A DNA stretch of 50,584 nucleotides from Fibrobacter sp. (GTDB taxonomy: Bacteria; Fibrobacterota; Fibrobacteria; Fibrobacterales; Fibrobacteraceae): positions 1-50,584 of the forward strand of contig NZ_JAFZKX010000086.1 of assembly GCF_017551775.1 (NCBI RefSeq), given 5' to 3'. The position numbers and the translations under genes were made by a program. Under the pieces are notes generated by a model that saw nothing but the letters and a program-made list of their open reading frames with translations, was not told where the DNA came from and did no database searches. Below are positions 8,691 through 40,103 of this stretch, piece by piece. The first letter of the stretch is position 1, and every line of letters begins with the position of its first letter.

Positions 8691-8816
8691 TAAAAAAAGC
8701 CCTTTTGGGGCAAAAAGAAAAATCCTAGGCGACCTGAGCACATAAAAATTCACAAGTCCGTTGCTGCTTTCGCCCTGGCGTGTTGCCCGCAAATAGTCAT
8801 TGCGCAGGGCCTAGGA
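8691..8816 (-). ncRNA. ffs: Bacterial signal recognition particle RNA (small SRP RNA)
   Basis: The minus-strand transcript would begin at 8816 with UCCUAGGC, which pairs perfectly with GCCUAGGA (8723-8730 on the map) and closes the molecule. Inside it carries CCUGCGCAA on the 5' side and AUGUGCUCAGG on the 3' side, matching the conserved CCUGCGCAA...AUGUGC-CAGG helix of SRP RNAs. The apex has the domain IV asymmetric loop CAGG/AGCA closing on a GAAA tetraloop, the Ffh-binding site. A consensus promoter places +1 at the helix base, and a terminator hairpin follows. SRP RNA plus Ffh targets nascent membrane proteins to FtsY/SecYEG. The apical helix is only 2 bp, shorter than the usual 3. Confidence 0.88.
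8692..8714 (-). terminator. Terminator of the SRP RNA gene
   Basis: On the minus strand GCCCC-AAAA-GGGC is followed by seven T (8692-8698). The stem is short (4 bp) but the U-tract is strong and the position, 3' of the closed SRP helix, fits. Confidence 0.65.
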
Positions 8817-9049: not shown

Positions 9050-9065
9050 TGTGATGTTGCTCACA
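9050..9065 (+). promoter_or_regulatory. Perfect CRP-type palindrome
   Basis: TGTGA-TGTTGC-TCACA matches the classical CRP/CAP half-sites exactly with the 6-bp spacer, and AAA precedes it. It lies about 100 bp upstream of the proposed proximal start of the giant cadherin gene. This suggests control by a Crp/Fnr-family regulator, which is inference. Confidence 0.55.
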
Positions 9066-9123
9066 CTAAAAGGCAGGATTCGGTAAATCGGGAAATTTTG
9101 CCCCGGTTCTTTGAAAGACCACC

Positions 9124-9151
9124 TTGGAATGTAACATTTTTTTAGTATTTT
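9124..9151 (+). promoter_or_regulatory. Candidate proximal promoter of the cadherin gene
   Basis: TTGGAA (9124-9129), a 16-bp spacer, then TATTTT (9146-9151), predicting a start near 9158 and a 48-nt leader. Confidence 0.4.
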
Positions 9152-9164
9152 TGGGGTCGGTGTG

Positions 9165-9187
9165 AAATGGGTTGGAGTCAACCATTT
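9165..9187 (+). promoter_or_regulatory. Leader hairpin before the cadherin start codon
   Basis: AAATGGGTTG / CAACCATTT form a 9-bp stem (one bulged G) around GAGT, ending in a T-run, 18 bp upstream of the ATG and 13 bp upstream of the GGAG. It could be a 5' mRNA stabiliser or an attenuator. Confidence 0.4.
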
Positions 9188-9205
9188 TTCCGTGTGGTGG
9201 AGAAA

Positions 9206-12200
9206 ATGAACAAATTGAAGTGTTTGGCAGTTTTGTGCGTTGGTCTTATACCGACGTTCGCTTTCGCTAAAGCTAGCGTAGCTCCGTTGCAGTTTGCTGG
9301 GGCGGCAGATTCTTTGGAGAATCAGGCTCGCTGGGATTCCCTGATGAAGTACAAGATCTGGGGAACGGATTCCATCAATATATTCAAGAACGTCAACATC
9401 TCGGATACGATTGGCTACAATGGAACGAAGGGGCGCCTCTATCTCTTAAATGACGAGCATGTTTTGGGTGGTCCGACCATTGTGGGTGGCAACATGGTTT
9501 TCGACAATTCGAATCATGATCAAATTCTTAAGGGTCCGGTGCGTGTAGAGGGAAATTTGCGACTTGGTACTCAGGACTATAACGTCATGGAGGGGACGTG
9601 GTGCGTTCAGGGGAGTATTACATCGCAGTACAACGATGGCGATAGGCAGTGGAACTCTCTGTTGCAGGGCCCCCTGTATACGAATGAAACAAGCACGGTC
9701 TTTACAAAGAAGGTGGGAAACTACGGGGCTTGCCCGGAGGCGGTTCCTCCTCTGGAGGATTTGTCCGTACCTTATTTGTCCGATAATGCCTGGCAGGGTT
9801 CGGACAATCTCATGATGACCAGTACAAGTCCAGAAACAGGGTATATCCATGTTCCTCCTGATTCCGTTGAAAAGAATAAGTATGGGACATATGATAAGTA
9901 CTATAACAATTTTGTTATAAATGGTACCAAGAATAAGGCTCTTTATGTGCTAATGCCTCCTGGCGGCAAGTTGACTAGAATATTCTCGAAGAACGGTTTC
10001 AAATTCGATAATGCCGTGAATGATTTGGTAATTCAGGTGGTATATGTCACCGAGGGCACGAAGTTTGCAAATGGCCAGTGGGATTTGACGAATAAGGCTA
10101 ATTTTACCTACGTGACCAATTCTGATTACTCGGGTAACCTGCTCTTTTACACAAACAGGCCTGTTCAATGGAATTATTGGGATGGAGCTTCATTCCAGGG
10201 CACCTGGATGACGACGGACTCCATTGCTGTCGGCGGTCACTTTAAACTGGCTGGCCAGATTGTTGCAAGATATATTCATTTCTATGCCCATATCAAGGGT
10301 GACTTTCAGTACATGCCTTTCGACCCGCCTTGGATCGATATCAATCCTGAAGCCCGTACATGGGGTACCCTCTATGAAGGTCTTTCTGGCTTGCAGCCGC
10401 TTAGCATTTCTTTGAACGAAGCCCCGACGACCGACGTCACCTTCAAGTATTGTTTTATTTTCAATGGTAATCAGGCGAACAACAGGGATACGGACCCAGA
10501 TTCATTGAATGCGTTTGCCAGCTTGGACGATGTCGTCACATCGGGGATTCCTATTTGTAATGGAGCCAATTCTACCAGCTACGAGACGGTGACGTTCCCC
10601 AAGGGACATAAGACGCCGACAAAGGCAGTTGCGGTTGCGGTCAAGGACGAACTCATCGAGGAATGGGGCGAAATGTTCACGATTCGCGTGTTCGACATGG
10701 TGGGCGCCGTGCTCCCGAACAAGAGCCGTGAAGGCGAGTTCCTAATCGAAATCGTGGACGACGACAAGGCCCCTACCAGCAAGGATACTGTATTTGTTGG
10801 CCTTGAAGATACGGACAATGCGTTTGTCCGGTTCCCGGCCTATACGGGTAACGGGCTTCCTCTGACGGATTATTATGTGAAGATTGAATCGCTGCCGATG
10901 CACAACAGCAGTGTCGCCGGTACGTTGATTTATGACGGCAACGTCGTGGATGCCGATGCAATTTCTGCGGGTCTCGTGATTCCAAGCGCCGACCTCGGTA
11001 AGCTCACGTATCGTGGAAACCCGAATGCGTACGGAACGGATGTCGCCTCGTTCATCTTCAGGATTATCAACAAGGGTGTCCCCGCTGTCAGCAGCAATCT
11101 TGTCCGTATTAACCTCAATCCGGTGAACGACGCCCCGAAGGTGAGAGACACAACGTTCACGGTCAAGGAAAACGTCGCAGGTCAAACGACTCCCAATGCG
11201 GTGAACGGCAAAATTCCCGTGACGGATGTGGATGATAGCCAGTTTAAGTACGCCTTTGATAATACGGATGCGAACTACGCCAAGGTGACCTCCTTGTATA
11301 CCATCAATTCGAAGACGGGCAAGATTTCCGTGAAGAGCGGTGTCTTGCTGAATTACGAATCGGCGGACAGCCTCTTGAAAATCAAGGTGAATGTTACGGA
11401 TTCCGCATCCACGACTAACGGTACCGGTAAGATTACGGTCAAGTCCACTGTGACCATCCAGATTCTTGATGTCAACGACAAGCCGGTCATTAGAGACACG
11501 ACTTTGACGGTTGCGGAGAATTCGCCTGCAGGTACCGAAGTGGGCAAGGTTACCGCGACGGACGAAGACACCTGGAAGGTGCTTACCTTCTCGCTTGCCG
11601 ATATGTCGGGAAATAGTGGTGCAGCGCAGCTCTTTACGATCAATTCGGACGGCATGATTAAGGTGGCTACGGGTGCCAAGCTCGATTACGAGACGAAGAA
11701 GGAATACAAACTCTACGCCATCGTGACGGACAATGGTGCCTCTAAGGGCTTTACGAACCTGAAGGATACCGCCATAGTCACAATCAAGATTACGGACAAA
11801 AATGATCCGCCCATCATCGTCGATATCAAGGACAATTATAACGTTGTCGAAAATACCAAGACCGGGACTGTTTTTGCCCAATTCAAGGTTGTCGATGTGG
11901 ATGCGGCCGATGGCAGCACTACTTTGAGCGCAACTGTCAAGGACAAGAACCCGGTTTCGGGCTCTGTTACTGCCGACCAGCTCTTCGGAGCTTCCGTCGC
12001 GGCATACAATGGCGATACAGTGTATGTCAAAATATTCGTGAAGGATAGCGCCCTCTTGAACTACGAAGCGCTGTTCAAGGCCGATACGGTTAGCTACAAT
12101 GTGACCCTGTCCATAAAGGATGCCAATGGTGGCACCGGAAGCAACACCGTTACCGCCGATACGAAGATCTTCGTGACCGATGAAAACGAAGTCCCGACTA

Positions 12201-15200
12201 TCGATGATGGCTCGTTTACCGTTGCCGAAAACGCTCCTGCGGGAAGGCTTGTGGGTACCGTCAGCGCTTCTGACCCGGATACCTATAATGCGGTCTACAA
12301 AAAACTCACGTACTCGCTTGTCGGCACTTCTGACCGTTATGCGGTTGCAAGCGGTACCGGCAAGATTACGGTGAAGCAAGGTGCGGTAATTGACTACGAG
12401 ACGACTCCGAACCACAAGGATACCATCAAGGTCCGCGTTAAGGACGGCGGTGGACTCGTGTCGAGGATTGCGACCATCGAAATTACCATTACCAACACGA
12501 ACGAGAACCCGGAGCTCAATTGCGTTACGGGCGATACCAAGTGCAACGGCCCGTTCGAAATTGCCGAAAATTCCGCTACGGGAACCGTCATCCACACGTT
12601 CGCGATTTCTGACGTAGACGGAAACGATGCTGGCCTGCTGAAGGTTGAACTTGCCGACAAGAATGGCAGCAATGCGAAGACGCTCTTCGACGTGAAGACG
12701 AATGACGCGAATACGGAAATGATTGTCTTTGTAAAGGACAGTTCGAAGCTCGACTACGAGACCGTGGATGCCCAGTATGTCGTGATCCTTACGGTGAAGG
12801 ATGCGGGCAATGCGACTGACACGCTTATACGTACCATCAAGGTGAAGGACGTGAACGAACGCCCGACGATTTCGGACAAGACTGTCACGAAGCCCGAAAA
12901 CCTCCCGAAGGACGCCCTCGTTGCGGAACTTACCGCGACCGACCCGGATACGAAGCATGTGGCGGAATTCGGTCACCTGGATTACAGCATCATCACGCAG
13001 AACACTCCGTTCTGGATGGATTCGAACAAGGTGAAGGTCGCCGACTCTACGAAGCTCGATTTCGAGACGACTCCGACCATCAAGTTCAAGGTGGAAGTCA
13101 AGAACTGCACGAAGAACTCCTCTACGGGCATGTTCACCGTGGGTTGCCTTACCGATACCGCCCTCGTGACGGTCAAGCTCACGAACGTGAACGAGAATCC
13201 GGAACTCAAGTGCGTTACGGGCGATACCAAGTGCAACGGCCCGTTCGAGATTGCTGAAAATTCCGCTACGGGAACCGTCATTCACACGTTCGCGATTTCT
13301 GACGTGGACGCAAACGATGCGGGCCTGCTGAAGGTTGAACTTGCCGACAAGAACGGCGGCAATGCGAAGACGCTCTTCGACGTGAAGACGAATGCCGCGA
13401 ATACGGAAATGATTGTCTTTGTAAAGGATAGCTCGAAGCTCGACTACGAGACCGTGAATGCCCAGTATGTCGTGATCCTTACGGTGAAGGATGCGGGCAA
13501 TGCGATTGACACGCTCATACGTACCATCAAGGTGAAGGACGTGAACGAACGCCCGACGATTTCGGACAAGACGGTCACGAAGCCCGAAAACCTCCCGAAG
13601 GACGCCCTCGTTGCGGAACTTACCGCGACCGACCCGGATACGAAGCATGTGGCTGAATTCGGTCACCTGGATTACCGCATCATCACGCAGAACATGCCGT
13701 TCTGGATGGATTCGAACAAGGTGAGGGTGGCCGACTCTACGAAGCTCGATTTCGAGACGACTCCGACCTTCAAGTTCAAGGTGGAAGTCAAGAACTGCAC
13801 GAAGAACGCCTCTACGGGCAAGTTTACCGAGGGCTGCCTTGCCGATACGGCTGACGTGACGGTCAAGCTCTCTGACGTGAACGAAAATCCGGAAATTATC
13901 GTGGACGATGGTCCCGATGGTGACGACGACACCGACTCGCTCTGCATCGCATACTGCGATACGACTGGCCGTGGCGTCGATCCGGAAGGCAAGAAGACCC
14001 TTACCGTGGGTGTCAAGGAAAACGTGCCGCAGGCGACTGTCGTACTTTCGTACGTCGTTAACGACCAGGATGCCGGCGATATCAACGGCCTGAAGGTCAA
14101 GTTGCTCGACAACAAGAATACTGGCGTCGATTCCCTCTTTAAGGTCGATCTCGTGAAGGACACGCAGAGCGGCAAGAAGAAACTTGTCATTACCGTGCTG
14201 GACAGCTCCAAGCTCGATTACGAGACGATTAACCCGAGGCACGAGGTGACGATTGTCCTTACCGACCCGGATGGCCTTACGGATTCGCTCGTGCGCATTA
14301 TCGAAGTGCTTGACGTGAACGAACCGCCGACCTTCGAATCTTGGCCGTTCGAATTCGAGGAACATAATGAGCCGGGTGCCATTGTCGGCCATGTCGAACA
14401 TGGTGTCGATGTTGACACGACAGCTATTTCGGGAATCAGCATCCCCGCGTACTACGAGAACGACAAGTTCGAATTGACGGGTGGTGCCGACGGTGCCGAT
14501 ACGCTGTTCAAGCTTTTGAAGAACGGCGACCTGGTTGCCCTGAAGAGATTCAACTACGAGACGGACCCGCACGAATATGTCATCTACATTTCCCTGATGG
14601 ATACGTTGATGCCTGAACTCGTCGAGACCGATACGGTTTATATTACGCTCCTCGATATCAACGAAAATCCGACAATCCTTACGGACTCCGTGCGTGTCGA
14701 AGAAAACGCGAAGAAGGGTACAGTCGTCGATACCCTCGAGGCGAAGGATCTCGACCTGTACGATACCGTGCTGACCTTTACGCTGGTCAAGGATACGAGC
14801 GGATGCTTCGAAGTCTCCAAGAGCGGCGTGATTACCGTGAAGGCCGACCGCTGCAAGAACCTGGATTACGAAAAGAATCCGGAACTCCCGATTACGGTGA
14901 AGGCGACCGACTCCAAGGGCGGTTCCGATACCAAGATTATTGCTGTGAAGATTACGGACGTGAACGAGGCTCCGGAAGTCGACGACCAGACTATCTACGT
15001 GGATGAAGACGAGAAGATTGGAACGGTTATCGATACGATCGAGGCTAGGGACCCCGATAAGGATCCGAAGTACAGCGATATCACGTACACTGCCATCGAC
15101 GGCGATACCTTGGTGTTCCGTATCGATCCGAAGACGGGCGAGGTCATCTTGCGGGATACCCTCGATTACGAAAAGAAGTCGGAATACAAGCTCATTGTCG

Positions 15201-17284
15201 AGGTCTCCGATGGCGAGTATGCGGATACGGCGACGGTCACCATCAAGGTGAAGAATGTCTACGAACAGCCCAAGGTCGATATCATCATCGCCGAGACGGT
15301 GGATTCGACGTGGCATTATCCGGATACCCTCTACATCAACAACAAGACTCTGTGCATTGAATGGGTCGCCATGAACCGTGTTTCCGAAGAAAAGCTGAAG
15401 GACTCTACGGAATGCGGCATCGAACTCGAGGAAGGCGAGAACATCATCATCCGCAAGTTCGAAGACCCGACGATGGATACTCCGGGTGTCGATACGCTCG
15501 TGGTATACGTGAGCACGAAGTCCCCGGTGGTCACGATCCGCAAGGTCGAAGACGAACTGCCTGACCCGAACATCTTTACCGTGGTGGAAGAAGCCGCGAA
15601 GAGTGATACGGCATTCTACGTGAATACCCCGATTAACGAGATTGTCGTGACGGTCAAGGATCCGGACGAAAAGACCAACGAATCCTTCACGATGAAGCTC
15701 GACTTGGAACCGTTGAAGATTCCGTCCAAGACGTACAAGACGCTTGGTGATATTGCGGACTTCAGCATTGCCTTGAGCGACAAGCCGTCTTCGAAGGTGA
15801 CGCATACGCCGGTCAACGGTGAGAAGATTGCCGTCAGCTACACGGAGAAGGTGAACGGGAAGGAACTTCTGATTACCTACTACACCGACATGAAGGGCGA
15901 ACCGCTCGAGAATGAAGACGGCGTGGTGGAAATGACTATCACCTGTACCGAGAACATAAACGGTACTGACGTGAAGTTCTCTTACCAGGCCGATGCCGTT
16001 ACCGGTGCCGTTATCAAGACATCGGGCGGATACGTGAAGGCCAAGGATTCGACGGGCAAGGCCGCCGAGAACCAGGTGGTCTACACGGTTTCTTATGAGA
16101 CTGTGGACAAGGCCGGCAACGTCGTGCACATCTCTTACGGCGTGGATGCCGAGGGCAATATCGTGAGAAACGAGTTCGGCAGCATCGGCTACGAGGTTAC
16201 GTACTCCTTCACGAACAAGTACGGCAACACCGCAACGCAGTCTGTATTCGTAGTGATCGACCAGGTGCCGCCCAAGGTCAAGATCCTGTACCCGACTAAC
16301 GGCGAAATTATCTACTCGAACTTTGTCGATGTGAAGTGGACTGTGGACCTCGGCGATGGCAACGGCCCGGATGTCCAGGATACGCTCGTGACGCAGAGCC
16401 TCAAGAAGGGCGGAAACGTTATCGTACGCATGTACCGCGACAAGGCGGGCAACATAGCGAGCGATACGGTGCGTGTCGTCATGAAGAACGCGAAGGAAGT
16501 TGCAATCTCCGTCGAACAGCCGGTTACCGAAATTTCGAAGGACAAGGTTGCTGATTACTACGCAAAGAGCGAGCCTGAAGAAGGCGAGACCTTTGCTGTG
16601 ACCATCTACAACACGAAGTCCAAGAAGGAAATCGAAACCCTCGTGGGTGGTGACTTCGAAACCAAGGAAGGTAACGGTGATGAACCGTATGAAGGCCTTG
16701 ATGGACACCTCGGACCGACGCTCGCTATCGATGCTAAGGCTCCGACGTTCAACGAAGTGGGTGGCCTCGCCACGCTCGACGACTTGGTCAGCAAGGAAGG
16801 CCTCGTGATGCTTGACGGTGTCAACGCTGCCAAGAGCGAGAAGATGCCTGTCGCGGAATACGTGGAAGAGTACTGCTCCGCCGCCTTTGCCGAAAAGGTG
16901 GGCAGCGACCTGAGCCGTGCGAACTTGTATGAAACCGAAATGCACGTGAAGATCTGGATCTACACGACTCTCGGTCAGTTTGTGGATTACTACTCCTTCA
17001 CGCAGGAACTTAACGATCCTGACTACGTGAACGATGCCGGTCTCCTGACGCTGTACTTCGAATTGAAACCGGATAGGGATGGCAATGTCCGTACGAAGAA
17101 CGGTCGTCTCATGGCAACGGGCGCTTACATCTACAAGACCGAAGTCGACATGAGGTCTGAATTGCAGTGTACGCTCCCGCCTGTGAAGGATGAATCGGCG
17201 AAGTCCTTGAAGAAGGGCGATGTCCGCAAGGTCAAGGAAGACATGCTGAAGAACTTCGGCTACAAGCGACCGGAAAAGAAGTAA
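9206..17284 (+). CDS. Giant secreted cadherin-repeat adhesin-like protein (2692 aa)
   Basis: I start at the ATG at 9206 (GTGGAG just upstream); the ATG at 9167 lacks an SD sequence and would precede the signal peptide MNKLKCLAVLCVGLIPTFAFA. Residues about 30-390 form a beta-rich N-domain, and about 400-520 a Calx-beta-like domain (ends EFLIEIVDDDKAP). About 648-2020 hold roughly twelve cadherin repeats with calcium motifs (AEN/EEN, DPD/DVD and DVNEAPE, DKNDPPI, NTNENPE linkers). Ig-like domains follow, then a C-terminal module (VKIWIYTTLGQFVD...TGAYIYKTEV) like FlgD/T9SS-type tails, ending in a basic segment KRPEKK. It should be surface-exposed and calcium-stiffened, for cell-cell or fibre contact (inference). 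Two cadherin pairs are a recent 690-bp duplication. A strong terminator follows; the FecR/barrel genes downstream may be partners. Confidence 0.88.
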   Translation: MNKLKCLAVLCVGLIPTFAFAKASVAPLQFAGAADSLENQARWDSLMKYKIWGTDSINIFKNVNISDTIGYNGTKGRLYLLNDEHVLGGPTIVGGNMVFDNSNHDQILKGPVRVEGNLRLGTQDYNVMEGTWCVQGSITSQYNDGDRQWNSLLQGPLYTNETSTVFTKKVGNYGACPEAVPPLEDLSVPYLSDNAWQGSDNLMMTSTSPETGYIHVPPDSVEKNKYGTYDKYYNNFVINGTKNKALYVLMPPGGKLTRIFSKNGFKFDNAVNDLVIQVVYVTEGTKFANGQWDLTNKANFTYVTNSDYSGNLLFYTNRPVQWNYWDGASFQGTWMTTDSIAVGGHFKLAGQIVARYIHFYAHIKGDFQYMPFDPPWIDINPEARTWGTLYEGLSGLQPLSISLNEAPTTDVTFKYCFIFNGNQANNRDTDPDSLNAFASLDDVVTSGIPICNGANSTSYETVTFPKGHKTPTKAVAVAVKDELIEEWGEMFTIRVFDMVGAVLPNKSREGEFLIEIVDDDKAPTSKDTVFVGLEDTDNAFVRFPAYTGNGLPLTDYYVKIESLPMHNSSVAGTLIYDGNVVDADAISAGLVIPSADLGKLTYRGNPNAYGTDVASFIFRIINKGVPAVSSNLVRINLNPVNDAPKVRDTTFTVKENVAGQTTPNAVNGKIPVTDVDDSQFKYAFDNTDANYAKVTSLYTINSKTGKISVKSGVLLNYESADSLLKIKVNVTDSASTTNGTGKITVKSTVTIQILDVNDKPVIRDTTLTVAENSPAGTEVGKVTATDEDTWKVLTFSLADMSGNSGAAQLFTINSDGMIKVATGAKLDYETKKEYKLYAIVTDNGASKGFTNLKDTAIVTIKITDKNDPPIIVDIKDNYNVVENTKTGTVFAQFKVVDVDAADGSTTLSATVKDKNPVSGSVTADQLFGASVAAYNGDTVYVKIFVKDSALLNYEALFKADTVSYNVTLSIKDANGGTGSNTVTADTKIFVTDENEVPTIDDGSFTVAENAPAGRLVGTVSASDPDTYNAVYKKLTYSLVGTSDRYAVASGTGKITVKQGAVIDYETTPNHKDTIKVRVKDGGGLVSRIATIEITITNTNENPELNCVTGDTKCNGPFEIAENSATGTVIHTFAISDVDGNDAGLLKVELADKNGSNAKTLFDVKTNDANTEMIVFVKDSSKLDYETVDAQYVVILTVKDAGNATDTLIRTIKVKDVNERPTISDKTVTKPENLPKDALVAELTATDPDTKHVAEFGHLDYSIITQNTPFWMDSNKVKVADSTKLDFETTPTIKFKVEVKNCTKNSSTGMFTVGCLTDTALVTVKLTNVNENPELKCVTGDTKCNGPFEIAENSATGTVIHTFAISDVDANDAGLLKVELADKNGGNAKTLFDVKTNAANTEMIVFVKDSSKLDYETVNAQYVVILTVKDAGNAIDTLIRTIKVKDVNERPTISDKTVTKPENLPKDALVAELTATDPDTKHVAEFGHLDYRIITQNMPFWMDSNKVRVADSTKLDFETTPTFKFKVEVKNCTKNASTGKFTEGCLADTADVTVKLSDVNENPEIIVDDGPDGDDDTDSLCIAYCDTTGRGVDPEGKKTLTVGVKENVPQATVVLSYVVNDQDAGDINGLKVKLLDNKNTGVDSLFKVDLVKDTQSGKKKLVITVLDSSKLDYETINPRHEVTIVLTDPDGLTDSLVRIIEVLDVNEPPTFESWPFEFEEHNEPGAIVGHVEHGVDVDTTAISGISIPAYYENDKFELTGGADGADTLFKLLKNGDLVALKRFNYETDPHEYVIYISLMDTLMPELVETDTVYITLLDINENPTILTDSVRVEENAKKGTVVDTLEAKDLDLYDTVLTFTLVKDTSGCFEVSKSGVITVKADRCKNLDYEKNPELPITVKATDSKGGSDTKIIAVKITDVNEAPEVDDQTIYVDEDEKIGTVIDTIEARDPDKDPKYSDITYTAIDGDTLVFRIDPKTGEVILRDTLDYEKKSEYKLIVEVSDGEYADTATVTIKVKNVYEQPKVDIIIAETVDSTWHYPDTLYINNKTLCIEWVAMNRVSEEKLKDSTECGIELEEGENIIIRKFEDPTMDTPGVDTLVVYVSTKSPVVTIRKVEDELPDPNIFTVVEEAAKSDTAFYVNTPINEIVVTVKDPDEKTNESFTMKLDLEPLKIPSKTYKTLGDIADFSIALSDKPSSKVTHTPVNGEKIAVSYTEKVNGKELLITYYTDMKGEPLENEDGVVEMTITCTENINGTDVKFSYQADAVTGAVIKTSGGYVKAKDSTGKAAENQVVYTVSYETVDKAGNVVHISYGVDAEGNIVRNEFGSIGYEVTYSFTNKYGNTATQSVFVVIDQVPPKVKILYPTNGEIIYSNFVDVKWTVDLGDGNGPDVQDTLVTQSLKKGGNVIVRMYRDKAGNIASDTVRVVMKNAKEVAISVEQPVTEISKDKVADYYAKSEPEEGETFAVTIYNTKSKKEIETLVGGDFETKEGNGDEPYEGLDGHLGPTLAIDAKAPTFNEVGGLATLDDLVSKEGLVMLDGVNAAKSEKMPVAEYVEEYCSAAFAEKVGSDLSRANLYETEMHVKIWIYTTLGQFVDYYSFTQELNDPDYVNDAGLLTLYFELKPDRDGNVRTKNGRLMATGAYIYKTEVDMRSELQCTLPPVKDESAKSLKKGDVRKVKEDMLKNFGYKRPEKK
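12497..13876 (+). repeat. 690-bp tandem duplication (two copies) inside the cadherin gene
   Basis: Copy 1 spans about 12497-13186 and copy 2 about 13187-13876, an exact 690-bp offset (230 codons). Each copy encodes two cadherin repeats plus a Cys-containing loop (CVTGDTKCNGPFEIAENSA). The copies differ at only a few percent of bases by eye, so the duplication is recent or kept uniform by gene conversion. Confidence 0.92.
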
Positions 17285-17306
17285 GTTTTTCTTAATATTT
17301 TTGATA

Positions 17307-17339
17307 GTAACCCCTTGAATACCAAGGGGTTACTTTTTT
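17307..17339 (+). terminator. Strong terminator after the cadherin gene
   Basis: GTAACCCCTTG / CAAGGGGTTAC form a perfect 11-bp stem with a 5-nt loop followed by seven T, 22 bp after the stop codon. It separates the cadherin gene from the FecR-headed unit. Confidence 0.93.
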
Positions 17340-17460
17340 ATGTGATAAAATGCAATATTGTATCTTGGAATATGCGCTTGCTCACGTCGCAAAAATTTGC
17401 TAGTGCATTTTTTGGGGAAATGGACTATTTTTTACTGGTAAAGCCAAAAGAAAGAGTCCC

Positions 17461-19059
17461 ATGCAATATTCTCATATTCGCCTAATTTCGCTGATTTTGC
17501 TGCTCCCTTCTTTGATTTTTTCGGCTCCGGTAGCCGGAAAGGTCGGCCTAGCTCTGAACGAATGCGAACGCCAGAAGAAGAAGGACAGTAAGTGGTCCCC
17601 TCTGGGGGTCGGTGCTCACGTGTATCAAACCGATAGGTTGCGTACGGGGCGTGAGTCGGAACTCGTTATCCGTCTTCTGGACGGAAGCGCTATACGCATG
17701 GCTGAGTTTACTTATATCGAAATGTCTCAAATTCTCGTGCCGAAGGGCGACGGGACGTTTGACACTCGGATTAAGGTGGATTCGGGCGTCGTGAATTTCG
17801 CCGTCAAGAAGCAGAAGAAAAATTCCACGTTCAAGTTCAAGACGTCGGGGACGCATACAGCTTCTATCCGCGGGACGGAAGGCTTCGTGGGAAGTTATAA
17901 CAACGTCTTTGCCGCGAGCCTTGTGAACGGCAAGCTTGAAGTCGAAGATGGCGAGACTCCGGTTTTGGCAATCGGGGCCGGCGAGACGATTTTCGGTACG
18001 GATTCCCTGGTCTCCATGAAGTTGGCTTCTTCGGGCGATCCGAAGTTCGCCAAGCGTCTTTCCATGATTATGCAGTCGGGCAAGGACATGGGCGAGATGC
18101 TCAAGGATGTGAAGGCAGCCGATGAGGCGGTGCAGCAGGAAAAGAAAAAGGCCGCTGTGGATAACCTGCCCGAAAACGGTTTTACGCTCAATACGGAGAA
18201 TGCTGTCGAAGTCTGTAATGAAGGGCTTGCGCTTGACGGCATTTACCGCACGAGCGATCCCAATGCGAAACTCGTGGTGAAAATGGGCAAGCATGAGGTG
18301 TCCGAGAATCTTGCTACCATAGCCGACGGCCAGTCTCATCCGTTTGCCTACAATGTCGCCGTAAGCGATGAAAACGGACTCTGGAAAGAAACCGAGGCGG
18401 AACTGGTCTTTGTTTCGGGCAAGGTCAAGGATTCCAAGAAGGTTTCGCTGAAGGTGAATCCCGCATGTCGCGGTGTGAACCATATCGCCCCGCAGGTGAG
18501 AATTGCTTCGTATGATTCGACCTCCTGCAAGGTGCAGGTCGCCGTGAACGGCATGCAGGATGACGTGGGTATCTTGACGCAGTCCATCGACGGGACTTCT
18601 GTTTCCGAGGAGGCTGTTTCCAAGAACGGGTTGTCCAGATTCAAGTTGTCGTCGGGCATTCACGAATATGAATATGTGCTGAAGGACCAGGCGGGCAATG
18701 TCGGAAATGCAAAGAAGATGATGGGCTGCTATCCAGTACGGCGCTTCAACGTTGAGGTCTTTGGCGGGCCGCGCGAAGAACTGATAGTTCCGCCGCCACC
18801 GTATGGTCTCGCGGACAGGATTTCCAAAATGCTGGAATTCAGGATCCGTACCCCCGAAAACGATCCGCAGTTCCTGTACAAGGTGACCGTGAAGCAGAAC
18901 GGGAAAGTTATTCTGCAGGAAACCTTGACGCAGATACAGACGCTGGATTACCAGATTCCGGTCGAACTTGTCAGGGGTGCGCGCAACAAGTTTGATATTG
19001 AAGTCATCCACAAGAGTGGGTTCCGGTCTGTCGCCGTGAAGAAGTTTGAGGTTCGTTGA
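17461..19059 (+). CDS. FecR-domain secreted protein
   Basis: A 532-residue protein. Residues 1-21 form a signal peptide (ending FSAP). Residues about 45-165 match the FecR fold: VYQTDRLRTGRESELVIRLLDGSAIRMAEFTYIEM, then FKFKTSGTHTASIRGTEGFVG and VVNGKLEVEDG-like strands. A Lys/Glu-rich coiled stretch lies near 190-235, followed by two or three beta-sandwich (Ig-like) domains to the end. Classical FecR relays signals from TonB receptors to a sigma factor, but many secreted FecR-domain proteins lack such partners. No sigma factor or anti-sigma N-terminus is seen here, so it is probably a structural periplasmic or surface protein. Its stop codon overlaps the next start (TGATG), implying translational coupling. 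Confidence 0.85.
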   Translation: MQYSHIRLISLILLLPSLIFSAPVAGKVGLALNECERQKKKDSKWSPLGVGAHVYQTDRLRTGRESELVIRLLDGSAIRMAEFTYIEMSQILVPKGDGTFDTRIKVDSGVVNFAVKKQKKNSTFKFKTSGTHTASIRGTEGFVGSYNNVFAASLVNGKLEVEDGETPVLAIGAGETIFGTDSLVSMKLASSGDPKFAKRLSMIMQSGKDMGEMLKDVKAADEAVQQEKKKAAVDNLPENGFTLNTENAVEVCNEGLALDGIYRTSDPNAKLVVKMGKHEVSENLATIADGQSHPFAYNVAVSDENGLWKETEAELVFVSGKVKDSKKVSLKVNPACRGVNHIAPQVRIASYDSTSCKVQVAVNGMQDDVGILTQSIDGTSVSEEAVSKNGLSRFKLSSGIHEYEYVLKDQAGNVGNAKKMMGCYPVRRFNVEVFGGPREELIVPPPPYGLADRISKMLEFRIRTPENDPQFLYKVTVKQNGKVILQETLTQIQTLDYQIPVELVRGARNKFDIEVIHKSGFRSVAVKKFEVR

Positions 19060-22000
19060 TGAAGGTTTGGAGTTGGCTTGCACTTGTCTTGATTGTTGCT
19101 GCCCTCGCTTATGCGGAGGCAGCTCCGTCTGTTTTGAATGGCGGACCCGTTTCGGGATTCTTGACGGTTGAAAACTCCCCCTACACAGTGAACGAGACTA
19201 TCGAAGTTCCCGAAGGGAAGGCGCTTGTCATCGAGGCGGGGGTGACCCTGAAGTTCAAATCGGGTGCCGGGCTTGATGTCAGTGGCGGCTCCTTTATGGT
19301 CATGGGCACAGAAGACAGGCCTGTTGTATTCGAAGGCGAAGACGGTTCCTGGAATGGTATCTCGTTGACGGGTAACCATCGCGCGGAGTTGTCGTATCTC
19401 GAAATCGATGGTGCGGAAATCGGCCTTGCCGTGGAAAGAGGCTCGCTTTCGCTCAACGGAGTCTACATCCGCAATGTATCGCGCATGGCGCTGTTTGCCA
19501 AGGAGGCCGAAGTCAAGATTGTCGGCGGTGCGTTCAACTACAGTGAAGGTGTCGGCCTCTGGGCGCACGAGGGCAGCGTCATCGATGCGGAAGAGACTGC
19601 CTTTTTTGGCAACAAGGTGGGCGTGCTCCTGTCTTCGGGAGCGAAACTCGATGTAAAGCAGGTCAGCATCAGCCGCAACGGGGATGGCCTCGTGATGGAG
19701 AGCGGAAGCAGTTTCGCGGGTAAGGAACTGGATGTAGAAGGAAATGGCATTGGCCTCGTGTCTGAGGACAACCCGCCTGCGGAACTCCGTGAGGCGGCGC
19801 GCGAGAACGATACCGATTTTTCGCAGAACCTGCAGGCGGCCCTGAAGGGTATTCCTGACAGCCCCCAGAATCCGGCGGCGGAAAATTATTCCAAGAAGCG
19901 CCCCGGGCTGAATGGAAACAAGCCCACGGTATGGTCGCTCAACGGGAACGTTTCTGTGACGGGCGGATACCATGCGGTATGGACGGCGTCCGATGAAAAC
20001 GGGGACGATTTCCCCAACTTGTTCCAGGTTCCCGGATTCTTTGCGGGCCTGAATGCCTACATGTTGATGCGTTCGTCCAAGGGCCGTTCTTTCGAAGTGT
20101 CGGCAAACCTGACGATGGACCGCTGGACGTATTTCAATCCCGAAAACGTATTTGCCGTGTATAAGGATAGCATGCAGAGGGTTGCCGTGGGCGATATGTT
20201 TATCTCCGCCGGGGACCTCTACATGGCCGGAATGGATGTGTTGGGTGGCTCTTACGACATCAACCTGTTCCGCAATTCAACTGGGACCCCGCGCTTTGTG
20301 GCGAGCGCTTTTGGCGGTGAAGTCAATGCGCCGAAACTGGTGGGCGAACGCAACAAGGAAATCTACAAGGATTATGTGGAAGAAGGCGAAGCCGAACCCC
20401 AGCAGCTCATGGTGGGCGGCAAGTTGCGCTGGAATCTGGATAGGCGCTTCAATGCGACTGTCGGTTTTGTCGGCAGCAGGAGCGAACTTGAAGATCCGCT
20501 GCTCCGCGACGGGGCGAATGCGGATGTGAATACGGCTATTCCGCTTACGACATCGAAGTCCATTTTTGCGGATGTGGATTGGAAACCGTTCCCCGGCAAT
20601 TTGCAGATAAATGCGCAGATGGCCATGGGCGGTGCCGATACCGCCGGTGTCCTTGTGCAGCGGGCCGTGAACAAGGTGTTCTCGGAAGCCAATCTCGACG
20701 TTTCCAATTTCGCAAAACTCCGCCGCCTCATGAACAACATGAGTTTGGTGGATCGCCTTTCGAGGGATGAACTGAACGAGATTTTTGGCGAGAATGCCAT
20801 GATGACCGAATCCGAAATGCGCCAGCAGCTGCGCCAGTATCTCACCAAGGCGAAGAATGTGCTGGATAGTTACGGAAAGGACAGGTCGAGTGCGGAAATC
20901 AGGAGCTGGGATGGCGACAATGTCGCTTTTGCTGCCTCCCTGCGCTGGGCTTTGCCGCATACGGTTCTTTCTGCCGGCATGCGCTATGTGGGCGCAGGCT
21001 TCTATAGCATCGGTTCCCCGGATCAGTTGCAGAATTCTCGCGAATGGAACATTTCGTTGGAGCAGAAGGTCGCGAACTTCTGGAACTTGGAACTTTCGTA
21101 CTTGTTGAATGTGGAAAACGCTGCGCATGAGGGTGACTACAATGTGTTTGGCTTTGCCGAAGGATCAGCCTTGGGACTGGTTCCCGGTGCGGAAGACCAT
21201 TGGCTTAAGGAACATGAGCAGGACGAAGACCGCACGCTTTACGACCATACGGCGGCGCTTGCGAATGTCATCGACATTGCTCCGCGTGCGAAGCTTTCGA
21301 TCGGCTATACCTTCAATTACAGGACCCGCAGTACGAATCAGAGATTGCAGGCCGTCTATTCCGCGGGCTCGGGAATATACGCCGACCGCTGGTTCCAGGG
21401 TGGCGACGGGAATGTGGTGGATATCGTGAATGGGGAAGATACGTTGAAGGTGGATTCCGCGCGCTGGGCTAGTTACTATGCGCTTGCGGAAAGTCCTTAT
21501 CTGGCGACCCAGTTCGAGGAACGCATCATGAAGCATGTGGTGCGGCTGGAATTGAAACTGGACCTGCCGAAGAACGTGTTGAAGGTCGGTGGTGTGTGGA
21601 GCCTGCGTCGTGACCTTTCCCGTTTTGAACAGGACGAACTGATTTCGGACTTCGACTTCAGCGACGAGACCTTCGGGCTTCTGGGTTACTATTTCCACGG
21701 TGGTGACTATTTTGAACAGAGCTACCCGGTTTTTTTGAATACGAATGTTGGTAACCTGCGCAACATGTTCATGGTAATCCCGCGCTACAAGCAGTACAAC
21801 CGCGACAATATGGAAGAATTCGAATGGCGTATTGCCGAAAACTTGCAGAAACCGCTTGTGAAGGACTTTATGGATTTGACGGTCGGCGCAGTATTCCGCA
21901 GGGAATATTTGAATCGCGATGAATTGCGCAAGCATATACGCGAAGTGGAAATGGATGTGGGCGGAAGCGCCACCTTGGGCTTTACCCATATGAAAAATTT

Positions 22001-22106
22001 GACATCCGCCTGGACTGTCGGAGCTTTGTATTGTAACCGTCCTGATTTGCTTTCGGAAGAATATTTTGACCTGTACGGGTCGGTTATGGTGAATTATGAA
22101 TTTTGA
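19059..22106 (+). CDS. Beta-helix / outer-membrane beta-barrel hybrid protein
   Basis: A 1015-residue protein. The ATG at 19059 overlaps the FecR gene stop (TGATG). After a signal peptide (cleavage near residue 20-24), residues about 35-235 form a right-handed parallel beta-helix with regular short strands (VIEAGVTLKFKSGAGLDVSGGSFMV, SLSLNGVYIRNVS, VGVLLSSGAKLDV, DGLVMESGSSFAG). A linker follows, then about 700 residues of amphipathic strands with many Tyr/Trp/Phe ends, finishing in MVNYEF. A terminal Phe is typical of outer-membrane barrels recognised by BamA. It could anchor or export the cadherin or GLUG proteins encoded beside it (inference). A helical insert rich in Arg/Glu lies near 550-620. 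Confidence 0.8.
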   Translation: MKVWSWLALVLIVAALAYAEAAPSVLNGGPVSGFLTVENSPYTVNETIEVPEGKALVIEAGVTLKFKSGAGLDVSGGSFMVMGTEDRPVVFEGEDGSWNGISLTGNHRAELSYLEIDGAEIGLAVERGSLSLNGVYIRNVSRMALFAKEAEVKIVGGAFNYSEGVGLWAHEGSVIDAEETAFFGNKVGVLLSSGAKLDVKQVSISRNGDGLVMESGSSFAGKELDVEGNGIGLVSEDNPPAELREAARENDTDFSQNLQAALKGIPDSPQNPAAENYSKKRPGLNGNKPTVWSLNGNVSVTGGYHAVWTASDENGDDFPNLFQVPGFFAGLNAYMLMRSSKGRSFEVSANLTMDRWTYFNPENVFAVYKDSMQRVAVGDMFISAGDLYMAGMDVLGGSYDINLFRNSTGTPRFVASAFGGEVNAPKLVGERNKEIYKDYVEEGEAEPQQLMVGGKLRWNLDRRFNATVGFVGSRSELEDPLLRDGANADVNTAIPLTTSKSIFADVDWKPFPGNLQINAQMAMGGADTAGVLVQRAVNKVFSEANLDVSNFAKLRRLMNNMSLVDRLSRDELNEIFGENAMMTESEMRQQLRQYLTKAKNVLDSYGKDRSSAEIRSWDGDNVAFAASLRWALPHTVLSAGMRYVGAGFYSIGSPDQLQNSREWNISLEQKVANFWNLELSYLLNVENAAHEGDYNVFGFAEGSALGLVPGAEDHWLKEHEQDEDRTLYDHTAALANVIDIAPRAKLSIGYTFNYRTRSTNQRLQAVYSAGSGIYADRWFQGGDGNVVDIVNGEDTLKVDSARWASYYALAESPYLATQFEERIMKHVVRLELKLDLPKNVLKVGGVWSLRRDLSRFEQDELISDFDFSDETFGLLGYYFHGGDYFEQSYPVFLNTNVGNLRNMFMVIPRYKQYNRDNMEEFEWRIAENLQKPLVKDFMDLTVGAVFRREYLNRDELRKHIREVEMDVGGSATLGFTHMKNLTSAWTVGALYCNRPDLLSEEYFDLYGSVMVNYEF

Positions 22107-22122: not shown

Positions 22123-25100
22123 ATGAATAGGCATTTCTTCCTGGTAGCGCTTTTGCTCCTCGCGACTGCGGGGTGGTGCGGCTATGTAGGTTGCGTAGAC
22201 AAGACTCGCTGCGATATCAATGTGAGTTCGTTTCTGGAATGGGATAGCCTGCACGCATATCTGTTGATGTGCGAATTGGGCTGCGATGATCTCCAAACAA
22301 TCCAGGTGACCGTAAAGAATGACATCGAGTTTCTGGAAAATGCACCGGACGAAAACTGTTCGACGAATTTTAATTCGATCAAGTTCTCGTATTCCGTCAT
22401 ACTCAAGGGCGAAGGGCAGCCTACGGTATCCAACTTGTGCATGTATAATTTGATAAATAACGAATCTTATGGATTTTTCTATACCGCGGAGCACCAACTT
22501 TCCATAAGCAACCTCAAGTTCAAGAATATTTATGCCGATGCGAACCAGGCCAAGTATTTCGGCCTGTTTGTGGGTAAGGTCGATGGTGACGTGCAGATAA
22601 ACAACGTGGAATTGGAAAATGTGCATGTAAAAGTTGACTCTGCGTCCCATTTCTCCGGTGGTATTTTAGGCGCCGTCGTCGCGCCCGAAAAAGGCCCGGA
22701 ACGCGGAAAGGTCACCATATCGAATCTTCGTATCAAGGATCTTGTCGTGGAAAGCCGTTCGAAACTGGCTGTGGGCGGTGTCCTCGGTTATGTGCAGGAT
22801 TCCCTCACGATGATGATGTCCAATATTTCGCTTGCGATGAAGCAGGATTCGATTGAAGGCGTGGTGGATGCTAATTCGGCTTTCTATGGAGGCGTTGTCG
22901 GTTATGCCGCCAATACGGTTCAGCTCTTCATTGACTCTATTGATGTCAATATGGATATCAACGCGGATTTTGACCGTAATGTACAGACGGTGGGTATTGG
23001 CGGTGCCGCAGGCAAGGTGGATGCTGGTGGTTTGCTTGCGACTCAGACTTGGGTTAAAGCGAATATTAAGACAAACGCGCGTTCTACGGCCACTACCGAT
23101 CGTTTCTTCTCGACGGCTTTCTATATGGGCGGGCTTGTCGGACAATGGAAAGCGGTTTCTTCGGATTCGTTCTGGGTCAATAGTTCCGAAATCAATGCGG
23201 ATATTTCGGCGAAGGGCCTTCTGGTCCCGTTTGTCGATGTCGGCGGAATTCTCGGGAATGCTTTTGTTGAGAATAATACGGGAACCTCGCTGGTCGCGGT
23301 CATGGATGTCAAGCAGAATACCCAAATCGACTTGGAGTCGAATTACTTTCAAAGGGCCTATGCGGGTGGCCTTATAGGCGATTTCTACAATGACGCAGGA
23401 AACTTTTCAGTCCTTATAGAAAGTACGACTGCGGAATCTGATATTCGTGGAATCACTTTTAGCGGTGCTGCTGGCGGTTTGGTCGGATTCCTGGACGCTC
23501 AGACGGTACTTATCAACGAAACCGAAGCATCGGGAAAAGTCCGTTTGCAGATGCACGATATGCTGTATGATTATCGGTCCCCGCTGTATGTGGGTGGCTT
23601 GGTTGGCCATTCCGAGAATGCAAAAATGAAGGTCAAGGGGGCATCCTATTCCGGTCTCCTGCAGCTTGAAGAACACGTAGCTACTGTCGATACGGCGACG
23701 GACTGGAAGGCGGGCGGTTTGTTCGGCTATGTGTCTAAGGGATTCCTCTCCTTGGATTCTTCGAACTTTTCCGGAAACCTGATGCTGTACAAGGTTCCGG
23801 GTACGCTTGCCGTCGGTGGCTTGATTGGCGGTACGCAGGAGCTTGATTCGCTTGCGGTGACGCGTTCCTATGCCACGGGTGTGCAGGATACTCTTGTCGA
23901 AGTACATTTCCAACCCCTGGATACGGGTTCGTTCGGAATTGGCGGCTTGATCGGCATAAACGACAAAGTGCGGGTTACCCGCATTACGAATGACTTTGTT
24001 CGCGGTTCCATCGTTCTTTGCGATACCTTGCTTTCGACGTTGCAGGATTATGTGAACGTCGCCGGAATCGTCGCTCGCGATATGCCGAAGGATAAGAGCG
24101 CGAGTATACTTATACAGGATGTGTACTATCGCGGCGGATTCGTCATGGATGACCTTTATGCGAAACGCCGTCCGCTTGCCTATGGGCTTGCGGTGACGGA
24201 CAACAAGAACGGTTCTATCAATGCGGCCTATGCGATTGACTTTACGGGAGTGGCGATGGACGGTTCCAACCTGAAAAAGAAAGGGTTCGAAGTGGTCGCA
24301 ACAGCTCCGTCCGATACCTTGGAGTTGCAGACTTATGGTAAAAAAGAGATGGTCACTTTGAACACGCAGGATTTCAATGATCTCCTCAACGAGGCCGCGG
24401 AGCGCGAACCGGCATGGGCGTGGTCCGACAGCGTCAACGACGGGTTGCCCTGGCTGCTGGGACTCGAAAATTACGATGTGGTTCACGGTTCTATAGAACG
24501 CATCGAATTCGTTGAAGAAGACGAAGAAGAGGATTCGACGGAAATTGAAATTGGTACGTTGCCCGAGAAAAAGCTGGCTTGTGATTACATTGGCGTCTAT
24601 GCCTCGGGAAACATTGCGAAGGTCGATGTCAACTTCCGTGTCGAATCGTCGGTTCCGGCCTTGATGCGGGTGCAACTTGTCAAGGAATCGGAAAAGGTCG
24701 TTTCCGATTCTATACTTGTCGTGACTTCGACGGATTCCGTGGTGAACTTTATCTATAAAGGCCTTAAGACGGGTGATTACCACATCGTCGTAATGCTCGA
24801 TACGCTCAGTGTTCAAACGTCTACGTGGAATGTCCGTAACGAAATCGAACTGAAACCCAATACTTGGACGATGGCGGCTCTCGGGTCTGCCGATTTGAAA
24901 ACTGTTTCGAACGCGGGTGACTTTACGGTATTCCGCTGGGATGAGCGCGGTGTGGCCTGCGATTACTGGCAGTACGTCGTTCAGCCTGTCGATGCGAAGT
25001 TTAAGGCCGAGGAAGGTTACTGGATTTACTCCAAGTCGGCGGCAACTATTCCGGCGAAGGATGATGAGCCGGCTGTCGATTCGCTCCATTGGCAGCTCCA

Positions 25101-26109
25101 CAGCGAGTTCTATGGCTGGAACATGGTCGCGAATCCCTATCCGTGGGATATAGCCTTGGATTCTGTTGCCGAATTCCAGAATGCGGATGATTCCAAAACG
25201 CCCTACTGGATGTGGGACCCGGAACGCCGCACTTATGTGCCTGCTGGAAAGTTGCCCGCATACGGTGCGTTCTGGGTGAATGTTTCCGAAGAAACAGTGC
25301 GCAGCGTTTCGACTGAGCCGAAGTTTACCGAACAGCCGGTGGCAACATACGGTAAGCTTCCCGAGAATGGTCGTGCTCTCGCGAAAACGGCTCGCGGTAC
25401 GTCGGGTAGTTCCTGGAGCCTCCGCCTTATGCTGAAGGGAACCGATGGATCCGAGGACAGCTGGAATGTGGTTGGCGTCGGAGCCCGGAATGTGGGCGTC
25501 GCCGAGCCGCCGGAGGGAATGGAACGCGGCGTCTCCCTGAACATTCTTGGTGGTAACGATGCCGGAGCGAAGGGCGTGAAGCGCCTCTCGAAGAGCATAT
25601 ATGCGGAATCGGGCGTTCCCTCCGGCGGGAGCGTCTCCTGGACGCTCGCGATTTCGTCTGCGAAATCGCAGTCGGCGACGCTGGAAGTAGAAGGCCTGGA
25701 AGAACTCGATGCGCTTGGCCTCATGGCGACTATCGAGTACAAGGGACAGTCTATTCCTTGCCGTGCGGGCGTTCCCGTGGTTCTTGAACTCTCGACGACT
25801 GCGTCTCAGGCCGAACTCAAGGTCTCCCCGAAGTCTGCCGCCCTCACGGTCGCGAAATCGTTGGAGAACATCCGCTTCGTGAAGATGCCTGCCGCGCTTA
25901 ATGTGTCATTTGACGTTTCCGAATCGCTTGCCGGCGCCACGGCCGATGTCATGTTGCTAGATTTGAGCGGTCGCACGCTTGCTGCTACCTCGCTGGAATC
26001 CGTTTCTCGGACGAACAATGTGTCGCTCGCTATGCCGGAACGCGGTGGCGTCTGCATGCTGGTGATTCGTGCCGGAAATGAACGCAAGTCCCTAAGGATT
26101 CGTCTGTAA
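22123..26109 (+). CDS. Large GLUG-repeat surface protein with T9SS-like C-terminal domain
   Basis: A 1328-residue protein. I start at the ATG at 22123, with AGAGGTGG 5 bp upstream; the earlier ATG at 22096 overlaps the previous gene. A signal peptide ([19 protein letters not shown]) is followed by many repeats of the GLUG type, with cores such as GGVLGYV, GGVVGYA, GGLVGQW, GGLIGDF, GGLVGFL, GGLVGHS, GGLFGYV and GGLIGG. These probably form a beta-helix. An acidic stretch (EEDEEEDST) near 810 leads into Ig-like regions. The last 80 residues ([15 protein letters not shown]...[10 protein letters not shown]...SLRIRL) resemble a T9SS type A sorting domain, suggesting export and surface attachment by that system. 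It follows the barrel gene by 16 bp and overlaps nfo (TAATG). Confidence 0.83.
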
Positions 26110-26939
26110 TGCTCAAAATTGGTTGCCATTTGTCCTCGTCCGCCGGTTTCAAGGCGATGGGCGAGGACGCCCTCTCCATTGGTGCAAATGTTTTTCAGTT
26201 CTTTACCCGCAATCCGCGCGGGGGAAGCGCTAAACCCTTCGACAAGGCCGACGCTGCGGCGCTGGTGAATTTGATGCGCGAAAACGGGTTCGGGCCCGCG
26301 CTTGCGCATGCGCCCTACACGCTGAATCCGTGTGCGGCGGACTCGGGGCTGCGCGACTATGCCCGCGACGTGATGAAGGACGACCTGTGGCGCATGGACC
26401 ACTTTCCGGGGGCGATGTACAACTTCCATCCGGGAAGCCACGTGAAGCAGGGAGCGGAAAGGGGAATCGAGCTGATTGCGGAACACCTGAACGCGATTCT
26501 CCGTCCGGACTTGAAGACAGTGGTTTTGCTGGAAACCATGGCGGGGAAGGGAAGCGAGGTCGGGCGCACCTTCGAGGAACTGCGTGCGATTATTGACCGC
26601 GTGGAACTGGCGGACAAGGTCGGGGTGTGCCTCGATACCTGCCACGTGCATGACGGCGGCTACGATATAGTGAACCGCCTGGACTGGGTGCTGGAACAGT
26701 TCGACAAGGTTGTCGGGCTTGGGCGCTTGCGGGCGATACACCTGAACGACAGCAAGAACCCGCTGGCAAGCCACAAGGACCGCCACGAGGTCATCGGTGC
26801 GGGATACATCGGGTTGGAAGCCCTGGTGCGCGTGGTGAACCATCCGGCATTGAAGAATTTGCCGTTCTACCTCGAGACTCCGAACGAATTGCCGGGGTAT
26901 GCGGCCGAAATTGCTCTTATGAAAAGCCGTGCACTTTGA
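26109..26939 (+). CDS. nfo: Endonuclease IV
   Basis: A 276-residue TIM-barrel AP endonuclease of full length. It cleaves 5' to abasic sites in base-excision repair using three metal ions. Metal ligands can be read in order: His in ALAHAPY, His in YNFHPGSH, Glu in LLETMAGKG, Asp and His in CLDTCHVHD, His in AIHLNDSK, Asp/His in HKDRHEVIG and Glu in YLETPNE. Its ATG overlaps the stop codon of the GLUG gene (TAATG), so it is translated as the last gene of a surface-protein operon, an odd setting for a repair enzyme. It may also have an internal promoter, though none is obvious. Confidence 0.96.
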
Positions 26940-39728: not shown

Positions 39729-39770
39729 TGACGTGCGCCGAAAAGAAATTGCCCTAAACGTCGATTGAAT

Positions 39771-40070
39771 GGTCTAACCGTGAGCACCAAAGCCACAGGC
39801 GTTAAGCCGTGGCGGGTGCGAGAGCGAGTGAGAGACCGGAGGTCTTGATACCCCAAATGACGAACGAGCGGTCTAACCGTGAGCGCCAAAGCCACAGGCG
39901 TTAAGCCGTGGCGTGTGCGAGAGCGAGTGAGAGACCGGAGGTCTTGATACCTCAAACGTCGAGCGAGCGGTCTAACCGTGAGCACCAAAGCCACAGGCGT
40001 TAAGCCGTGGCGTGTGCGAGAGCGAGTGAGAGACCGGAGGTCTTGATACCCCAAACGTCGAGCGAGCGGT
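39771..40070. repeat. Tandem array of a 99-bp structured repeat (three units plus a partial)
   Basis: The GGTCTAACCG word recurs at 39771, 39870, 39969 and (truncated) 40068, an exact 99-bp period. Each unit contains three potential hairpins: CGGT-CTA-ACCG, GCCACaGGC-GTTAA-GCCGTGGC and AGACC-GGA-GGTCT. The last two are separated by the conserved linker TGCGAGAGCGAG. Units differ at only a few positions. The array starts just behind the esterase terminator and ends 43 bp before the DUF436 promoter. An open frame across it is only a by-product of 99 being divisible by three. The stretch 39674-40126 holds no gene that I can see apart from this array, the promoter and the terminator. Confidence 0.93.
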
Positions 40071-40103
40071 CTAAAAAAGACTTGCCATTTCTGGCAAGTC
40101 TTT
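40071..40103 (-). terminator. Terminator of the esterase gene
   Basis: AAAGACTTGCCA / TGGCAAGTCTTT form a perfect 12-bp stem with a TTTC (GAAA on the minus strand) loop. On the minus strand it is followed by a T-run, 24 bp after the esterase stop codon. Confidence 0.92.

Follow-up and report, generated by a model that had tools for sequence, protein, structure and literature searches.

The window analysed here, a stretch of 50,584 nucleotides, comes from a 3.2 Mb Fibrobacter genome. Among named relatives, a Fibrobacter succinogenes MAG is closest, with a 98% identical barrel protein. Four long open reading frames lie on the same strand in the order cadherin, FecR, beta-helix/barrel and GLUG, and are followed by nfo (Table 1). 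A first-pass annotation had described four large proteins encoded in one direction, and the ORFs are present at the sizes it gave; its interval closed at 22106 and so omitted the GLUG protein. The FecR and barrel genes overlap by 4 nt when the TTG start is counted and by 1 nt from the ATG. The barrel and GLUG genes are separated by 16 nt or overlap, depending on the start used, and the GLUG stop overlaps nfo. FecR, barrel, GLUG and nfo form a single packed run in the window, in agreement with the earlier statement that three of the genes are packed or coupled. Because a terminator with a 12-bp stem lies 3' of its stop codon, the cadherin gene was assigned to a separate transcription unit. A terminator was present after the cadherin in every cadherin locus examined, differing in sequence but keeping the same position, 7-33 nt past the stop. 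A bacterial small SRP RNA lies just upstream of the cadherin at 8720-8816 on the minus strand (score 40.1 against an Rfam gathering threshold of 40). Between genes at 39752-40074, a 99-bp unit is repeated in tandem 3.3 times with 93% matching.

Table 1. Features of the cadherin and FecR-barrel-GLUG region, in window positions
Feature	Position	Strand	Description
Giant cadherin-repeat surface protein	9206..17284	+	2692 aa from ATG 9206; ORF opens at 9167; transcription unit of its own
Direct repeat inside cadherin gene	12491..13480	+	Two 300-nt copies, 12491-12790 and 13181-13480; 94% identity; spacing 690
Cadherin C-terminal domain	16592..17284	+	Tail LLKxFGY[KR]RP conserved; common to other Fibrobacter surface proteins
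Intrinsic terminator between cadherin and FecR operon	17306..17334	+	12-bp stem, T run; 3' of cadherin stop
FecR-fold exported protein	17461..19059	+	532 aa
FecR protein domains	17461..19059	+	FecR domain at residues 58-158, between an N-terminal signal peptide and probable Ig-like domains
Beta-helix/outer-membrane barrel protein (predicted)	19059..22106	+	1015 aa; TTG in frame at 19056, one codon upstream
N-terminal beta-helix domain of barrel protein	19155..19760	+	About residues 34-235; PF13229
Predicted beta-barrel domain	19926..22103	+	About residues 291-1016 (about 720 residues); periodicity, invariant C-terminal Phe
Helical insert within barrel domain	20643..20870	+	About residues 530-605; AlphaFold2 helices, 100-degree periodicity
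GLUG-repeat exported protein, T9SS-type-A-like tail (putative)	22123..26109	+	1328 aa; ORF opens at 22096; accessory third operon gene
nfo (endonuclease IV, AP_endonuc_2)	26109..26939	+	PF01261, E 4e-53; conserved right-hand cassette flank

The cadherin repeats named in the first-pass annotation were confirmed by PF00028, which matched ten stretches of the protein above the cut-off (E 3e-88, 290.8 bits). About 220 residues at the C-terminus are conserved, with FGY[KR]RP at the very end. A profile of this C-terminal region that took in weaker relatives matched 12 places in the genome, among them a 1942-aa GH9 protein (cellulase), a fibro-slime protein (TIGR02148, 66 bits) and a VWA-domain protein. 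The shared pattern is V.VYTNLG.FV ... GR..GTG.Y ... [FW]G[YVI][KR]R followed by a basic end. Judged by eye, the domain seems to resemble FlgD-type C-terminal domains; it had no Pfam match, and AlphaFold2 gave a mean pLDDT of 34 on two of its sequences. The VWA-domain protein is encoded in the window at 44998-49113 on the minus strand (1371 aa) and carries PF00092, divergent InlB repeats, a C-terminal domain like that of the cadherin family and a GIMRK tail. The cell-envelope proteome of F. succinogenes S85 contains the cadherins FSU_2931 and FSU_2932 (PMC4619616), and FSU_2932 (318 kDa, 2 peptides) was seen only on microcrystalline cellulose (PMC4619616). Their name, size and tandem arrangement suggest that they are orthologous to the window cadherin (compare loci L060 and L090). 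A role of the cadherin as a surface adhesin is plausible, since its C-terminal domain recurs in a fibro-slime protein and a GH9 cellulase and its S85 homologues are cell-envelope proteins. The domain is distinct from the tail of T9SS cargo (TIGR04183) and from the basic terminal domain (BTD/Fpm-1) of Fibrobacter, and it links the cadherin with one fibro-slime adhesin of the same genome, although the cadherin itself has cadherin repeats and no match to the fibro-slime domain (TIGR02148). It is a testable candidate for surface sorting besides the known BTD/T9SS tail.

We then compared the position of the cadherin with that of the other genes in related genomes. In two genomes (G001 and G082), the cadherin, a terminator-like hairpin and nfo follow in a row, and FecR, barrel and GLUG are absent. 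The neighbour order is kept from the recA side to mutS in G001 and on the mutS side in G082, where MutS is 98.6% identical to that of the window. The cadherin tail lies within 8 kb upstream of a barrel in 52 of the 78 Fibrobacter genomes compared and does not in the remaining 26; some of these 26 may be split contigs, but the two empty sites that were read are contiguous. Nearly all Fibrobacter genomes have a cadherin, with or without a window-type copy of the pair. In some species, a fusion of MFS, acyltransferase and AMP-binding parts (Aas/LplT-like) lies between cadherin and FecR (L091:8776-12228, and L045, L050, L068, L078 and L081), and a small SUI1-like gene comes next after it in both loci read in detail (L090 and L091). 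On these results, the cadherin is a separate gene, and a single system made up of all four genes is not supported.

The FecR protein was matched by PF04773 (E 9e-9, 36.1 bits against a cut-off of 24), and the NCBIfam models for Lsa33 and LipL45 matched it partially, far below their family cut-offs. By inspection, its N-terminus is a signal peptide, and no cytoplasmic anti-sigma part is present. No ECF sigma factor gene was found among the scanned neighbours, as had been noted before. The protein thus has the FecR domain of FecR anti-sigma regulators and neither their sigma neighbour nor their cytoplasmic anti-sigma part. We infer that it is exported by Sec and periplasmic. Like the FecR-domain surface lipoproteins LipL45 and Lsa33 of Leptospira, it would be an exported FecR-domain protein with no sigma partner, but it is not a lipoprotein and is coupled to a barrel.

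The protein encoded next to it is likely an outer-membrane barrel, because of its residue periodicity and its invariant terminal Phe. The periodicity of 170-180 degrees reached z 4.2-4.6 for residues 620-1016 and was weaker (z 1.5-1.7) for residues 291-525; the C-terminal Phe is invariant over 23 relatives. PF13229 matched the N-terminal beta-helix just under the cut-off (E 2.8e-5), and it also matched 14 of the 23 relatives at E 0.01 or better. The earlier description of a barrel carrying a beta-helix is therefore borne out in part, the helix at this borderline score and the barrel as a prediction. AlphaFold2, run on the protein as a single sequence, gave a mean pLDDT of 40, with strands at residues 40-190 near 75, and Foldseek returned nothing significant with this model. 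The barrel domain had no family match in Pfam and no similarity to known porins. Two further candidates were rejected for lack of domain matches: none of the 23 relatives had a TonB-dependent receptor plug or TonB_dep_Rec domain, and none matched Autotransporter (PF03797). LptD is a large barrel with an N-terminal beta-rich domain and in this respect analogous to the Fibrobacter protein. However, the latter showed no sequence match to LptD, including the LptD and LptD_2 domains, and a role as an LptD substitute was ruled out by a separate LptD_2 gene elsewhere in the genome (E 7.5e-71).

Some relatives consist of the barrel part alone. Three lineages (L059/L060/L077, L074/L075 and L076) no longer have the beta-helix, which is therefore not strictly required. 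In L074 and L075, which hold the ancestral-type copy, a low-complexity stretch takes its place and two consecutive FecR genes are found. A rule coupling loss of the beta-helix to loss of one Ig-like domain of FecR was rejected, being true in L059/L060/L077 and not in L076, with two FecR genes in L074/L075. A stand-alone 239-aa beta-helix protein related to this N-terminal domain (P0012, L005:8987-9706) is kept in many Fibrobacter genomes, in a gene run with an OmpA-family gene.

FecR lies directly upstream of the barrel in all 39 readable loci (38 or so genomes), at a spacing of -4 to +12 nt and usually with an overlap of 1-4 nt. Among the matches listed across the phylum, 112 of 120 barrels have a listed FecR directly upstream. 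Two of the other eight (G034 and G062) were read and FecR was confirmed upstream (L059 and L060); the remaining six are at contig ends, or their FecR matches are split, partial, weaker or below listing. Barrel matches were found in 163 of the 168 genomes of the phylum (E 0.001; many are weak or partial) and FecR matches in 137. FecR was not found in several genera of the Fibrobacteraceae (g5, g7 and g8) and in part of another family, so the pair is widespread and not universal. The window genome has a second copy on C62, with a 720-aa FecR ORF and a 1070-aa barrel (38% identical), adjoining a CBS/CorC gene. The same FecR-barrel order was found in other classes of the phylum (L125-L128 and L130). 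Since these pairs adjoin homologues of that CorC gene (33-36% identity) and a YbeY-like gene, the ybeY/corC neighbourhood is probably the ancestral site of the pair. The trees of FecR (by FastTree only) and of the barrel are congruent at the level of major clades. Against the 98% relative, dN/dS was 0.055 for FecR, 0.061 for the barrel, 0.048 for nfo, 0.22 for the cadherin and 0.16 for GLUG, which places FecR and barrel under a constraint comparable to that of the housekeeping gene nfo. FecR and barrel are the true unit, inseparable across the readable loci.

The window-type loci group into one supported clade of the barrel tree (33 rows, 100/100). Members at its base lack a cadherin and carry a GLUG-type gene immediately behind the barrel, and a crown clade of 24 rows has the cadherin upstream in all but L048 and L049. 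GLUG follows the barrel in 13 loci of deep and crown lineages, with gaps of about -11 to 63 nt; among crown loci it is found in the window, L041, L042 and L050, and most others do not have it. As the third gene of the operon, GLUG recurs but has often been lost. The window protein has 12 GLUG-like motifs (GG-hydrophobic2-G) against 0.13 expected by shuffling. It had no Pfam match and no score for a T9SS-type tail (TIGR04183/Por_Secre_tail), while its relative in L056 passes the Pfam Glug cut-off and the positional relative in L072 passes TIGR04183 (27.6 bits against 23). A GLUG protein with a T9SS-like tail, as proposed, is suggested by the GLUG-like motifs and, for motif and tail, by the relatives, and not by family or tail matches of the window protein itself. 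In L041, the 98% relative, the GLUG frame is broken near the signal peptide at about 13029-13115, with an in-frame stop after a stretch of 16 residues; the cause may be an error of assembly, or the gene may be a pseudogene. In two genomes (G053 and G098), the FecR-barrel pair lies between a deaminase gene and thyA/folA, having moved as a unit, and the cadherin is on another contig. Several species have a GH9 endoglucanase gene further downstream, past barrel and nfo (L051:15351-17069, L091:17539-19350 and similar), which the window lacks.

No record describing the barrel was found in Pfam, the PDB or the literature, and no paper was found linking Fibrobacter to FecR proteins. The FecR and barrel loci are not listed in the proteome papers, and no paper was found that mentions the neighbouring S85 loci. 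FecR and the predicted outer-membrane barrel, with or without GLUG, are a real undescribed module. The annotation had stated that no described system has this composition, which holds for the module; the four-gene system as a whole is not upheld, given the terminators, the empty sites and the unlinked loci. Gene order across Fibrobacterota gave a similarly divided result, in that FecR-barrel is kept and GLUG is recurrent but the cadherin is not co-conserved.

We consider the account of a two-gene envelope module, joined by GLUG in some loci, and a separately transcribed cadherin adhesin to be probable. The proposal that cadherin, FecR, barrel and GLUG are one surface-adhesion machine, a fibre with its outer-membrane anchor or exporter, draws on the 52 genomes with linkage and on the crown loci, and cadherin and barrel would both be envelope proteins. 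Against it are the terminator that ends each cadherin gene, the acyltransferase/AMP-binding and SUI1 genes that intervene in some genomes, the intact cadherin loci with no FecR-barrel-GLUG, the pairs with no cadherin at their locus, and the presence of the cadherin in nearly all Fibrobacter genomes regardless of a window-type pair. An obligate four-part system is largely refuted, and we regard the proposal as quite improbable. A barrel that moves its own N-terminal beta-helix to the surface as an adhesin, with FecR as its periplasmic chaperone, would fit the order of a type Va autotransporter, in which the beta-helix precedes a C-terminal barrel, and a beta-helix that evolves and is lost independently. 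Yet the barrel domain is far larger than the usual 270 or so residues, no Autotransporter or TpsB domain of the type Va and two-partner secretion systems is present, and the beta-helix is short, at about 200 residues; this explanation is improbable. Signalling of the FecR type, in which FecR would pass a signal on from barrel to sigma factor, is brought to mind by a periplasmic FecR-fold domain encoded beside an outer-membrane barrel, as with FecR and FecA in FecIRA. Here, however, FecR begins with an export signal peptide and lacks a cytoplasmic anti-sigma part, no sigma gene was seen in the scanned neighbourhood, and the barrel carries a beta-helix and no TonB-dependent receptor domain, which makes such signalling extremely unlikely.

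Two other functions of the pair are more likely. It may be a general outer-membrane channel, a porin-like importer or exporter of oligosaccharides or other polymers, to which its neighbours are incidental and in which surface proteins take no part. The ancestral-type copy is surrounded by housekeeping genes and has no gene for a large exported protein beside it, the pair occurs in oligotypic form over most of the phylum, and beta-helix folds often bind carbohydrates. On the other hand, the duplicate copy is repeatedly found in a tight operon with a GLUG gene, and the barrel resembles neither TonB-dependent receptors nor known porins. Alternatively, the pair may be a platform for surface proteins such as GLUG. 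We consider this platform role the most likely mechanism, though tentatively, and give a channel for another cargo about the same probability. The ancestral-type copy also counts against the platform, as the missing large exported neighbour means that a client is not always needed, and so do the absence of GLUG from most crown loci and the losses of the beta-helix.

In the platform reading, the FecR-fold protein with its Ig-like domains would be exported by Sec to the periplasm. The beta-helix would face the periplasm, and FecR may dock on it or on the barrel, giving a complex that reaches from the periplasm to the outer membrane. The copy beside ybeY/corC would be the ancestral one; a second copy would have arisen in the Fibrobacteraceae and recruited GLUG as the third operon gene. 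The complex may then anchor, or help to display, large exported surface proteins, GLUG being the one in the window copy. The cadherin would be exported from its own transcript and held at the surface by the C-terminal domain that it has in common with the GH9 cellulase and the fibro-slime protein, and it may contribute to adhesion to cellulose. A T9SS has been proposed for S85 (PMC6851124). In this genome, a homologue with SprA_N was found (L149:931-7791, 2286 aa, PF14349, E 2.4e-21), which supports a T9SS-type translocon in Fibrobacter; of the core set beyond SprA, PorV gave only a weak match.

Fibrobacter is a plant-fibre-degrading gut bacterium, and rumen biologists still ask how it builds its surface and holds its adhesins and cellulases in place. 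The pair could be a new outer-membrane machine, specific to the phylum, by which large surface proteins are exported or anchored, with a conserved ancestral copy and a cassette copy that has its own GLUG client, although we regard this fuller form as rather unlikely.
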